DNA of 38,749 nt from Flavobacteriales bacterium (lineage in GTDB: Bacteria; Bacteroidota; Bacteroidia; Flavobacteriales; TMED113), in assembly GCA_002718035.1 (NCBI GenBank), contig PBCX01000017.1, positions 1-38,749 on the forward strand, given 5' to 3'. Every line of letters begins with the position of its first letter. Positions within the stretch are counted from its first letter, which is position 1. A model generated the notes under the pieces. It saw only the letters and a program-made list of their open reading frames with translations. It was not told where the DNA came from and searched no databases. Of this stretch, positions 11,707 to 38,666 are shown in pieces. A program made the position numbers and the translations under genes.

Positions 11707-11769
11707 AATATCTATTTAATTTTATCAACATAAATTTACCAATTGGCTTTAAAATTTTATATTTATTCT

Positions 11770-14131: not shown

Positions 14132-14677
14132 ATGAAATTTGTTTTTTATTTATTATTTCCTTTTTTTTCCTATAGTCAATTTTTTACAATTGATGATGAT
14201 TATCTTGAAATGTATAACTCATCTAATCAAGGAAATTTTAGTCAAAATACATACTTGAATACAATTGATGACTTGATAATTTCATATGAAATAATTACTG
14301 ATTCATTACCCATTGAATGGGAGTTCCAAAATTGTTTTCCAACGTGTAACCCTATTAACACTTACTCCTTTGGTCCAATTTCCTTCCCTTCGGATTCAAG
14401 CGTTTATTTAAATGGTCATTTTTATCCAAACGGATTTGAGGGAGAAGCTTTATTAGTCATGGAATTAAACGCTAATCATGGGACACAAATAGACACAGTA
14501 TCTTGGAGAGGTGTTGCAATGTCAGAAATAAATATAAATGAACATATTGATTTAAATTCACAAATTAAATTAATTACTAACTTAAATGGTCAAGTCGTTA
14601 AGGATATAAGAAAAGAAAAAGTTTTGATAATTACTTATCAAAATAATCAAAGTAAATTGTTCTACATATTAAGATGA
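14132..14677 (+). CDS. Secreted hypothetical protein, possibly with a divergent T9SS-like tail
   Basis: Signal peptide; C-term LITNLNGQVVKDIRKEKVLIITYQNNQSKLFYILR. Confidence 0.55.
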   Translation: MKFVFYLLFPFFSYSQFFTIDDDYLEMYNSSNQGNFSQNTYLNTIDDLIISYEIITDSLPIEWEFQNCFPTCNPINTYSFGPISFPSDSSVYLNGHFYPNGFEGEALLVMELNANHGTQIDTVSWRGVAMSEININEHIDLNSQIKLITNLNGQVVKDIRKEKVLIITYQNNQSKLFYILR

Positions 14678-25332: not shown

Positions 25333-26349
25333 ATGACAAAAACAATAATTATATTTTTAATAACTCAAATTGTCTTTGGTCAATGTGTAAAAGGAGTTTG
25401 TGATAATGGTGATGGGAAATATATTTTTACAAACGGTGACTATGCAGTCGGCATATTTAAAGATAGGTATTTAGTTAAAGGAAAGTATACATCTTCAACT
25501 GGCGATTGGCTAGAAGGCAGTTTTAAAGAATCGAATTTAATTGAAGGCACAAGGTTTTATAAAAAAAATGGCGCCTATGCCATTGGAACATTTAAAGATG
25601 GATTTTTAGTTAAAGGAAAGTATATATTTTCAACTGGCGATTGGGAAGAAGGTAGTTTTAAAGAATCGAATCTTGTGGAAGGAACAAGGTTTTATGAAAA
25701 AAGTGGTGGCTATGCAGTTGGAACATTTAAAGATGGATTTTTAGTTGAAGGAAAGTATACATCTTCAACTGGCGATTGGGAAGAAGGGAGTTTTAAAGAA
25801 TCGAATCTAATTGATGGCACACGTTTTCATAAACTTTCTAGTGGTCAGGAATGTTTTAATATTTTCAAAGATGGATTAATAATTCAAACAACTTGTAACA
25901 CTCAAAATTATTATAATGAAGATGATATAGTTTCTGGTCCTTATTCAAGTACAATTAACTTAAAAAAATTTGATAATAAATTAAATGCCTATTACATCAA
26001 TTTAACAATTAATAATCAAAAAGTTAAGTTTCATTTTGATACTGGCTGTAGTTCATTCACAATGAATCAAACTCAGTGGAATGAATTAAGTAAAGGATTA
26101 GACTATGAAGATTTAAAAGTGTCGGGAAAAATTGAGGCTGTAGGAGCAGAACATAATGTTAAATATTATAAAATTATAGATCCAATTATTATTGATAAAT
26201 ATTCCATAAAAAATTTAATTGTTGGTGTAACACAAATTAGATCTTATAAAAATCCTGATAAAGACAATTTAATAGGACTGGGTTTTTTTAATAAGTTTTC
26301 AAATGTTATTTGGAATATGTCAGAAGAGACAATAAAGTTATATTTTTAA
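25333..26349 (+). CDS. MORN-like repeat protein fused to a retropepsin-like aspartyl protease domain
   Basis: Repeats 'GTFKDGFLVKGKY..STGDWEEGSFKESNL.EGTRFY'; 'INNQKVKFHFDTGCSSFTMN...NLIGLGFFNKFSNVIWNMSEETIKLYF'. Confidence 0.8.
   Translation: MTKTIIIFLITQIVFGQCVKGVCDNGDGKYIFTNGDYAVGIFKDRYLVKGKYTSSTGDWLEGSFKESNLIEGTRFYKKNGAYAIGTFKDGFLVKGKYIFSTGDWEEGSFKESNLVEGTRFYEKSGGYAVGTFKDGFLVEGKYTSSTGDWEEGSFKESNLIDGTRFHKLSSGQECFNIFKDGLIIQTTCNTQNYYNEDDIVSGPYSSTINLKKFDNKLNAYYINLTINNQKVKFHFDTGCSSFTMNQTQWNELSKGLDYEDLKVSGKIEAVGAEHNVKYYKIIDPIIIDKYSIKNLIVGVTQIRSYKNPDKDNLIGLGFFNKFSNVIWNMSEETIKLYF
25480..25830 (+). repeat. In-gene tandem repeat, 135-bp (45-aa) period, about 2.6 units
   Basis: 'ggaaagtat(a)...tcaactggcgattgg' recurs at 25480, 25615 and 25750. 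Confidence 0.85.
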
Positions 26350-29753: not shown

Positions 29754-30608
29754 TTGAAAACAAATTATTTATATTTTTTATTAATTTTTTTATCTATAAT
29801 TTGGGGTAGTTCTTTTATTCTAATAAAAAAATCATTATTAGTGTTTTCAGATTACGAAGTCGCCTTATTAAGAATGGTAATTGCTTGGTTAATCTTAATA
29901 CCCATTACCTTTAAAAAATTTTTTTCTTTAAAAAAAAAAATAATTTTACCTATTTTGGTAGTGGCGTTTTTAGGAAATGCTTTTCCTGCTTTTTTATTTG
30001 CTAAAGCACAAACACAAATTAATAGTTCAACCGTTGGGATTTTAAATTCACTTGTTCCAATATTTACAATTTTAATAGGTTTTCTTTTCAAGAACAAAAC
30101 TAGCACCAAACAACTATTAGGTGTTTTGATTGGTTTTGTTGGCGCGGTTCTTTTATTTGCGGGGGACGTAAATTTAGGATTACTTAATTCTTATAGCTTA
30201 TTAATAATTTTAGCTTCAATATTTTATGCAATAAATTTAAACACAATAAAATCTTTTTTAAAAAAAACGTCAGCTGTTGAAATAGCAGGCTATGCTTTCT
30301 TTATAATAGGTCCAATTTCAACTTTTTTATTACTTTTTTCAGATTTTTTTGATAAAATGAATAATCATTCAGGTGCATATGAAGCTTTTTTTTATGTTTT
30401 TATACTGGGTGCATTTGGCACCTCCTTCGCTATTATTATATTTAATTATTTAATAATTAAAACATCAGCAATTTTTACTTCTTCGGTTACCTATTTGATT
30501 CCTATTATTGCTCTTACATGGGGGTTTATAGATGGAGAAATAATTAATGAAAATCATATATTTTCTTTACTAATAATAATTTTGGGAGTTTATTTAACGA
30601 ATAAATAA
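29754..30608 (+). CDS. EamA/DMT-family transporter
   Basis: SIIWGSSFILIKKSL...ALLRMVIAWLILIP; about 10 TM segments; TTG start. Confidence 0.88.
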   Translation: MKTNYLYFLLIFLSIIWGSSFILIKKSLLVFSDYEVALLRMVIAWLILIPITFKKFFSLKKKIILPILVVAFLGNAFPAFLFAKAQTQINSSTVGILNSLVPIFTILIGFLFKNKTSTKQLLGVLIGFVGAVLLFAGDVNLGLLNSYSLLIILASIFYAINLNTIKSFLKKTSAVEIAGYAFFIIGPISTFLLLFSDFFDKMNNHSGAYEAFFYVFILGAFGTSFAIIIFNYLIIKTSAIFTSSVTYLIPIIALTWGFIDGEIINENHIFSLLIIILGVYLTNK

Positions 30609-36148: not shown

Positions 36149-36200
36149 AAAAACCTACAGACTTAAAAATGCGTTTTTACCTGCTCCCCCCTTCTTGTCT

Positions 36201-36335
36201 TCAGTTCGAACCATTTAGATGAATCTTATTCATTTCATCTGTTGTATAAAGAGATACTAAAAGATACAAAACAACCTAAGTTGTATAAGCAATAGATTTA
36301 CATATTCTTATACTAACCTAAAACCACTATGTTTA
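36201..36335 (+). repeat. Dispersed intergenic repeat, copy 1 (blocks A+B)
   Basis: cagttcgaaccatttagatgaatcttattcatttcatct...atactaaaagatacaaaacaacctaagttgtataagcaatagatttacatattcttatactaacctaaaaccactatgttta. Confidence 0.8.
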
Positions 36336-36357
36336 AAATATGAATACCTAATTAAAA

Positions 36358-36546
36358 TTATACAGGTCGTACATTGACAGCCCGCATTCCTTTTTGGTCC
36401 TCTTCTAATTCAAACTCAACAGAGTCGCCATCTTTAATTTGCTGAGAAACACCCGTTGTGTGTACAAAGTAATCTTTCCCTCCTTCTTCATTAATAAAAC
36501 CAAATCCTTTAGTTTGATTAAAAAACTTTACTGTTCCTTTTTTCAT
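36358..36546 (-). CDS. Cold-shock protein, CspA family
   Basis: MKKGTVKFFNQTKGFGFINEEGGKDYFVHTTGV...GDSVEFELEEDQKGMRAVNVRPV. Confidence 0.97.
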   Translation of the reverse strand: MKKGTVKFFNQTKGFGFINEEGGKDYFVHTTGVSQQIKDGDSVEFELEEDQKGMRAVNVRPV

Positions 36547-36575
36547 TTTATATATTTAAAAATTAATCTACGAAT

Positions 36576-36657
36576 ATACTAAAAGATATAAAACATCCTA
36601 GGTTGTATAAGCAATAGATTTACATATTCCTACACTAACCTAAAACTATTATATTTG
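36576..36657 (+). repeat. Dispersed intergenic repeat, copy 2 (block B), forming the promoter region of the CotH gene
   Basis: About 73/82 identical by eye to 36253-36334; ends in CACTAAC-N10-TATATTTG (box 36650-36657). Confidence 0.85.
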
Positions 36658-37938
36658 ATTTATGAAAAAGCTTTTTTTTTTACTATCATTTTGATTAGTT
36701 CTTGTAAAAAAGAGAGTTTGTTTTTTACAGAATACACAGGTAATTTACCAAAACTAGACATTACCACTAATGAAAACTATTTATGGTCTCCTGATTCGGG
36801 ATTATATGTAATTGGTATAAATGGAGCTGAAAAATGTGGGCCAATTGCAAATTATAATCAAAAATGGGAATACCCAGCAGAAATTGAATATCTAAAAAAT
36901 GGTCATATTTTATTTAGTGACCATGTAGGGCTCCGCATAAAAGGTGGTTGTAGTAGAATGAAATCCATGAAATCATTTGGACTTTATTGGAGAGGTAAAT
37001 ACGGAAATAATATACTGAATTACCCAGTTTTTAAAAATTCAAACCTAAATTCCTTTAAGCGATTGTTTGTTAGAAACTCTGGCAATGATTTTGGAGAAAC
37101 TCACATTAAAGATATTTCTATTATTTCAATAGTAAAAGATTATGGTGATTTTGAATTTCAAGCATACCAGCAATGTGTCGTTTATTTAAATGATCAATAT
37201 TGGGGAATCTATAATTTAAGAGAAATGATTACACCACATCATTTTGAAAATCATTTTGGTTTTCCAAAAGATAATATTGACTTATTAGAAGGTTCCGAGC
37301 TATATCCGCACGCAGATGATGGTACTATTGATGATTATACAAACACCGTTTTGGGTTTTATACAAAATTATGATTTATCAGATGACTTTAATTATGAACA
37401 TATATCAAATTTAATTGATGTTAATAGTTACATTGATTACATTATTGTAAATACATACATATGTAATAAAGATTGGCCAAATAATAATGTTAAATGGTGG
37501 AAGGATCGCACAAATAATAATTCAAAATGGAGATGGGTTTTATATGATACTGACCAATCTTTTCAACTAAATAACGTTGAGCATTTATGGATTGGAGACT
37601 TAATTGGTAATTATCTTTTATGGCCAGAATCAAAATATAGTACCCCTGGTGCATTTTATCTTTTTAACCACTTGATTAAAAACTCCGATTTTCTTGATAG
37701 TTTTTTAGCAAGATATATGTATTTCATAGAAAATGTTTTTGAGCCCAGAAGAGTAGAGTCATTAATTAGAAATAAACAAAATAGAATTGAGTCTGAGTAT
37801 GGTGATTTTTATGTTCGCTGGAGTATTGCAAATAAATCTGAATGGAATAAAAATATTAAGGAATTAATCGACTTTAATAACAAAAGACATGAATTCATGA
37901 AAACTGTAATTGAAAATTTAATAAATGAAAACAATTAA
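36655..37938 (+). CDS. CotH-family kinase-like lipoprotein; probable true start ATG 36662 with a -1 frameshift in the T10 tract
   Basis: VGLRIKGGCSRMKSMKSFGLYWRGKYG...LFVRNSGNDFGETHIKD...CVVYLNDQYWGIYNLREMI...WVLYDTDQSF; lipobox TIILISSCKK. Confidence 0.8.
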   Translation: MIYEKAFFFTIILISSCKKESLFFTEYTGNLPKLDITTNENYLWSPDSGLYVIGINGAEKCGPIANYNQKWEYPAEIEYLKNGHILFSDHVGLRIKGGCSRMKSMKSFGLYWRGKYGNNILNYPVFKNSNLNSFKRLFVRNSGNDFGETHIKDISIISIVKDYGDFEFQAYQQCVVYLNDQYWGIYNLREMITPHHFENHFGFPKDNIDLLEGSELYPHADDGTIDDYTNTVLGFIQNYDLSDDFNYEHISNLIDVNSYIDYIIVNTYICNKDWPNNNVKWWKDRTNNNSKWRWVLYDTDQSFQLNNVEHLWIGDLIGNYLLWPESKYSTPGAFYLFNHLIKNSDFLDSFLARYMYFIENVFEPRRVESLIRNKQNRIESEYGDFYVRWSIANKSEWNKNIKELIDFNNKRHEFMKTVIENLINENN

Positions 37939-38455
37939 TTTTATTTTAATTACAGTAATTTTTTTTTGTTTAGAATTATCGGGGCAAAATAAAAATATAA
38001 TGCTCACATATCAACAATCAAAATTTATTTATTCTCCTGGATTAGAATTTAATTACTTTTTTAATGAAAAAACAGCAATCAATTTGGGAATCAACTCATT
38101 TATTTTTGACTACGATCCATCTCAGTTGGTGAACATATCAAACCATTACATAACTAATAATAATCATTTACATTTTTATAATTTTAATATCGGTCTATGT
38201 TATGTTTTTTTTAATTATAAAAGTTTTAAAATTTCTGGATTAATAGGGGGAAAGTGGTCTTATGGCCCATATTTTAAACCATTATATTTTTATGAAGATG
38301 GAAACTACAATATCTATTATGATTCGGCAATAGAGGGGCAAAGTGATTTTGGTATAGATACAGGGATATTCAGTTATATTGGGCGTTTTATTCTCGGAGT
38401 GAAGTTTAGCACTGATAATAATAAACTAAGATATTCTATTGGATGGGCATTTTAA
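37925..38455 (+). CDS. Secreted/outer-membrane hypothetical protein
   Basis: Signal peptide MKTINFILITVIFFCLELSGQ; beta-rich, C-term 'LRYSIGWAF'; overlaps the CotH stop. Confidence 0.6.
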   Translation: MKTINFILITVIFFCLELSGQNKNIMLTYQQSKFIYSPGLEFNYFFNEKTAINLGINSFIFDYDPSQLVNISNHYITNNNHLHFYNFNIGLCYVFFNYKSFKISGLIGGKWSYGPYFKPLYFYEDGNYNIYYDSAIEGQSDFGIDTGIFSYIGRFILGVKFSTDNNKLRYSIGWAF

Positions 38456-38457
38456 AG

Positions 38458-38485
38458 AAAAAACCCACCAATTAAGGTGGGCTTT
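38458..38485 (+). terminator. Rho-independent terminator
   Basis: aaaaaaCCCACCaattaaGGTGGGcttt just after the stop at 38455. Confidence 0.7.
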
Positions 38486-38531
38486 AGTTAATGTGACGCG
38501 TAGCAGTTACGCTAAGCTCTCCCTCTCTTTC

Positions 38532-38666
38532 TCAGTTCGAACCATTTAGAATAATCTTATCCATTTCATCTTTTTGTATGAAGAGATACTAAAAGACATA
38601 AAAAAACCTAAGTTACATTGGATTTAGATTTATATTTTTTGAGCTAATATAAAACAACTATATTTA
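38532..38666 (+). repeat. Dispersed intergenic repeat, copy 3 (blocks A+B, more diverged at its 3' side)
   Basis: cagttcgaaccatttagaataatcttatccatttcatct...gagatactaaaagacataaaaaaacctaagtt...aaaacaactatattta. Confidence 0.8.

Follow-up and report, generated by a model that had tools for sequence, protein, structure and literature searches.

The break at the start of cotH in this Flavobacteriales draft genome is best explained, with a probability of about 70%, by an unremarkable T run whose length is off by one base; this figure covers both an artefact and a recent real allele. The window, that is, the whole 38,749-nt stretch of contig PBCX01000017.1 that was analysed, carries ten T just behind the start codon of the gene. 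A consensus or sequencing artefact is tentatively the somewhat likelier origin of T10; a recent indel that arose by replication slippage and is present in part of the population is possible but doubtful. cotH would be an ordinary CotH-kinase-family lipoprotein gene, read from the ATG at 36662 on a leaderless mRNA, and T10 would be a one-base length change within the T-rich codons of the signal peptide. The break would be one instance of a broader tendency of the assembly, namely the interruption of several unrelated conserved genes at long A/T runs. An earlier note on this DNA had named homopolymer miscalling as the main competitor of phase variation. An erroneous run length, or else an indel of recent date, is now the better reading, given the T7 of the closest relative and the other breaks.

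The cotH locus

Read directly from the sequence, the ATG (36662–36664, forward strand) is followed by AAA AAG C, the T10 run (36672–36681) and ACTATC. As assembled, the frame of this ATG encodes MKKLFFLLSF and closes after ten residues with a TGA stop at 36692–36694 (reading 36662–36694). The CotH frame sits one frame off and is intact downstream. It extends from an upstream stop through a TTG at 36655 to 37938 and was listed from this TTG as a 427-aa ORF (36655–37938, forward strand) with a translation that starts MIYEKAFFFTIILISSCKKES... and stays open to 37938. A one-base change at the T run would join ATG 36662 to the open CotH frame, and a length change would in this way switch the gene. 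The out-of-frame position of CotH behind this ATG, as described in the earlier note, was confirmed.

The best relative is the single cell AG-343-M05 (G002, L016), with a CotH ortholog of 93% identical amino acids. A positive n-region, a hydrophobic stretch and a lipobox cysteine are present in this relative and in the ATG-joined frame of the window, and absent for the ATG as assembled. The predicted lipobox cysteine (LISSC) is encoded at 36703–36705 on the forward strand; the relative has GAC at the aligned place. The suggestion of a lipoprotein signal in front of an intact 420-aa CotH domain stands in its first part, a CotH protein with a lipoprotein signal once the frames are joined. Its second part needs correction, as the Pfam domain comprises about 322 aa inside a predicted mature protein of about 411 aa.

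The genome search located the CotH kinase-family domain PF08757 at 36931–37899 on the forward strand (hmmscan E-value 3.8e-35). The match covers the full model (positions 1–322 of 322) with 122.4 bits against a curated cut-off of 23.8. Of seven CotH matches in the genome, the window contains two. The likeness to the spore-coat kinase CotH of Bacillus subtilis (PMC7821199) lies in the full-length PF08757 match, and the blocks of the present CotH are conserved among relatives. In contrast to the B. subtilis enzyme, it is a predicted lipoprotein of a marine Bacteroidota, and kinase activity and substrate are putative. Solved structures gave no significant sequence match to the CotH protein, and viral contigs searched for the cotH gene had none.

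A downstream gene of 176 aa (37925–38455, forward strand) overlaps the cotH stop by 14 nt and also adjoins cotH in the relative. A Pfam search with this gene had no match. Both genes form a sharply bounded block of 94% identity between window 36661–38463 and contig L069 5756–3949 of the relative. The surroundings differ in the relative, which suggests that cotH and the downstream gene may have moved as a unit.

Intergenic repeats of approximately 90–150 bp occur around this block. The copies at 36189–36344 and 36576–36666 flank a cold-shock gene on the minus strand (36358–36546), and another copy is located after the cotH block (38521–38666). The copy at 36576–36666 (forward strand) is 88% identical to 36254–36344, carries the promoter box described below and extends over the ATG. 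The repeats (36189–36666 and 38521–38666) and the blocks shuffled with respect to the relative raised the idea of an integron or cassette array. It was rejected: in the genome, the search for an IntI integrase yielded only TIGR02249 matches below the cut-off, of a kind present in 14 of 14 control genomes. An Rfam search of the window found no RNA element. Elsewhere in the window, three tandem 135-bp copies (25431–25835, about 85% alike) are located inside a 338-aa ORF (25333–26349).

Promoter and start codon

ATG 36662 is very probably the true start of cotH, since the ortholog of AG-343-M05 begins at the same ATG, in frame and with a lipoprotein signal (MKKVYFFIIIILIGACKKES), and a promoter box is located 4 nt upstream. 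DNA homology between window and relative starts at about the ATG (window 36661). The box, TATATTTG at 36650–36657 on the forward strand, corresponds to the Bacteroidota −7 box TAnnTTTG by its sequence, by a spacing enriched in this genome and by the published consensus. It ends 4 nt before the ATG, and the TTG from which the ORF track starts the gene lies within it. A −33 element was not evident upstream of cotH.

The spacing was studied in a sample of 299 ATG-started genes of this genome. TAnnTTTG boxes cluster 15–28 nt upstream of the ATG, the leadered arrangement, and again 4–5 nt upstream. The latter position was observed seven times, with 0.52 expected (p 1.3e-6, approximately 13-fold enrichment), and probably represents a class of leaderless promoters. 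Boxes of this type, ending 4–5 nt before an ATG, are also found at window positions 14132, 32531 and 5918 and at other loci. In Flavobacterium psychrophilum, the −7 box spans −12 to −5, and leaderless mRNAs account for 5.5% of those examined (PMC9723704). Judged by the box spacing, the cotH mRNA is probably leaderless as well, with transcription starting at 36662 on the A of the ATG. TTG 36655 would then fall within the promoter and would probably be absent from the message.

This bears on the gene as annotated, with translation from TTG 36655 (MIYEKAFFF...) and no break at all. Read from the TTG, the frame stays open and continues with a hydrophobic stretch and a lipobox, and the TTG starts at 29754 and 34634 in the window look genuine. 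However, this TTG falls within the TATATTTG box, ahead of the point where transcription is inferred to start, an n-region read from it has a net charge of zero compared to +2 from the ATG, and the relative uses the ATG, with homology beginning at about that position. A TTG start, which the earlier note had posed from the ORF track, is thus very unlikely, and the well-placed ATG of the same note has gained support by the in-frame ortholog and the box 4 nt upstream. Other TTG-start ORFs of the window were considered as hidden frameshifts and rejected: those at 11743, 13472, 26310 and 27477 have downstream in-frame ATGs, and those at 29754 and 34634 look like true TTG starts.

Comparison with the relative

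After the signal, the CotH frames of window and AG-343-M05 differ at 70 of 1242 sites, distributed as 14, 8 and 48 over the three codon positions. The dN/dS ratio of 0.127 indicates purifying selection. Both values show a maintained protein, so that the break is either young or unreal. By this substitution pattern, cotH is a gene kept as a protein during most of the divergence of the two genomes.

The relative has only T7 at the cotH start, in frame. Its stretch from the ATG to the lipobox cysteine is 4 nt longer than in the window, which places the window frame off by one. The comparison of tract length in related genomes, proposed in the earlier note as a check, thus revealed that the long tract is not kept: the single close ortholog has T7. 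As the gene is carried by only one close relative, a single genome is the basis for calling the run absent elsewhere. The neighbouring gene illustrates the origin of such runs: it has T9 in its signal region and CT6 with other substitutions in the relative, and both versions are of equal length and in frame.

Homopolymer runs in the genome

Simple-sequence contingency loci are known from Neisseria and Campylobacter, in which homopolymer runs cause phase variation of surface proteins. A contingency locus at cotH would turn a surface lipoprotein on and off within the population by slipped-strand mispairing at the T run. The earlier note had proposed it for the position of the tract. The likeness is a homopolymer within the first few codons, which leaves a lipoprotein gene shifted in frame relative to the ATG: the run falls among the codons for the signal peptide of a protein predicted to be a surface or periplasmic lipoprotein, and a one-base change links the ATG to an open frame under selection.

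These features were compared with the background in a 430-kb sample of the genome (28.4% G+C, 371 kb coding) and by genome-wide pattern searches. The sample has approximately 42 A/T runs of at least 10, 32 of them in ORFs within the 371 kb of coding sequence. Runs of at least 8 at a distance of up to 75 nt from an ORF start number 60. The whole draft has about 43 A/T runs of at least 11; such runs occur in 12 of 12 genomes of the family, and this genome has the most. T10 is not unusual for a genome of about 28% G+C and does not stand out from this background. T runs are concentrated around the beginnings of ORFs, which fits the use of TTT and TTA codons in signal peptides.

A second clear start-proximal frame offset was not found in the 430-kb sample. 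Candidate breaks at runs of 8–9 appeared at about the control rate, and many look like joined neighbour genes or alternative starts. An A12 candidate (L153) proved to be two different adjacent genes.

Phase variation at cotH is unlikely, and little weight is given to a contingency locus. In contrast to the loci of Neisseria and Campylobacter, the cotH poly-T belongs to the genome background and is not conserved in the relative, where it is T7; no enrichment in surface genes was seen. Runs of at least 10 are common, the second start-proximal case is missing in 430 kb, and breaks also strike unrelated conserved genes, as described below. The tract position is better seen as a by-product of AT-rich Phe and Leu codons in signal sequences. 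A search for literature on homopolymer phase variation in Bacteroidetes lipoproteins found none with the terms used.

Other broken genes and possible transcriptional slippage

In this genome, three unrelated conserved genes are interrupted at A11 runs; all relatives in which these genes were located have them open. A DUF58 gene (A11 at L089 5920–5930) has an open frame of 167 aa, compared to 307–318 aa in seven orthologs of at least 57% identity. An ABC exporter gene (G000 C3:102656–102666; L157, L171) is open for 364 aa, compared to 598–619 aa in seven genomes, and an MFS transporter gene (G000 C3:152823–152833; L158, L186) for 285 aa, compared to 417–427 aa in ten genomes. The relatives have runs of at most 9 at the DUF58 and ABC sites. 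AG-343-M05 has five runs of at least 11, none of which breaks a gene. About 20 other runs of at least 11 in the present genome lie within genes and are in frame; the assembly is therefore not generally error-ridden at homopolymers. The frame offset has the same sense in all three A11 breaks and the opposite sense in the cotH T10. Counting cotH, the draft has at least four such breaks, and those outside cotH do not concern surface antigens. DUF58, ABC exporter and MFS genes are not what a contingency system targets.

T10 may also be real and fixed, with an RNA polymerase that adds a U, so that a fraction of the mRNAs is read into CotH in the manner of Blochmannia and Buchnera. In E. coli and Buchnera, slippage at A/T runs is dominated by insertions that rise exponentially with run length (PMC5574713), and Blochmannia vafer has eight genes with poly-A/T frameshifts (PMC3017870). 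The likeness consists in several otherwise intact conserved genes with a one-base offset in a long A/T run, here at about 28% G+C. The cotH gene has its frame break inside such a run, is otherwise intact and its CotH frame is under purifying selection. The run of ten would be nucleotides 11–20 of the inferred mRNA. However, the T run is not conserved in the relative, and a single insertion does not mend the three A11 breaks. Compared to Blochmannia and Buchnera, the runs are not conserved here, and the three cases are off in a direction that a single insertion cannot fix. The present genome is a draft, probably strain-mixed, from a marine Bacteroidota lineage not known as an endosymbiont. A fixed T10 allele expressed through slippage has a small chance of being correct. 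A one-base length change remains the preferred reading; if the T10 allele is real, polymerase slippage on U10 just after the start could still provide some in-frame mRNA.

Nature of the draft assembly

The draft has 19 contigs and is 86.8% complete; a 16S gene was not found in it. Many contigs have scattered single N with a codon periodicity (spacing modulo 3 of 738:341:322), namely the sequences L081, L084, L086, L087, L089, L100 and L143. The window itself has zero N. The scattered N suggest a strain-mixed consensus, in which sites differing between strains were written as N. Such a consensus may carry a wrong or minority run length.

Implications

Should the breaks be artefacts, they caution against taking homopolymer frames of this assembly as biology, and they warn that a TTG start in gene calls can mask a break. 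The leaderless-promoter spacing offers a simple rule for the choice of start codons in this lineage. If the breaks are real, a marine Bacteroidota would join the insect endosymbionts in tolerating frame-broken poly-A/T genes. There is a slim chance that this marine, possibly free-living Bacteroidota lineage, whose genome is small and AT-rich, tolerates A/T runs that break the frame of several conserved genes by means of transcriptional slippage, and that the leaderless cotH mRNA would give a mixed output of a surface kinase.
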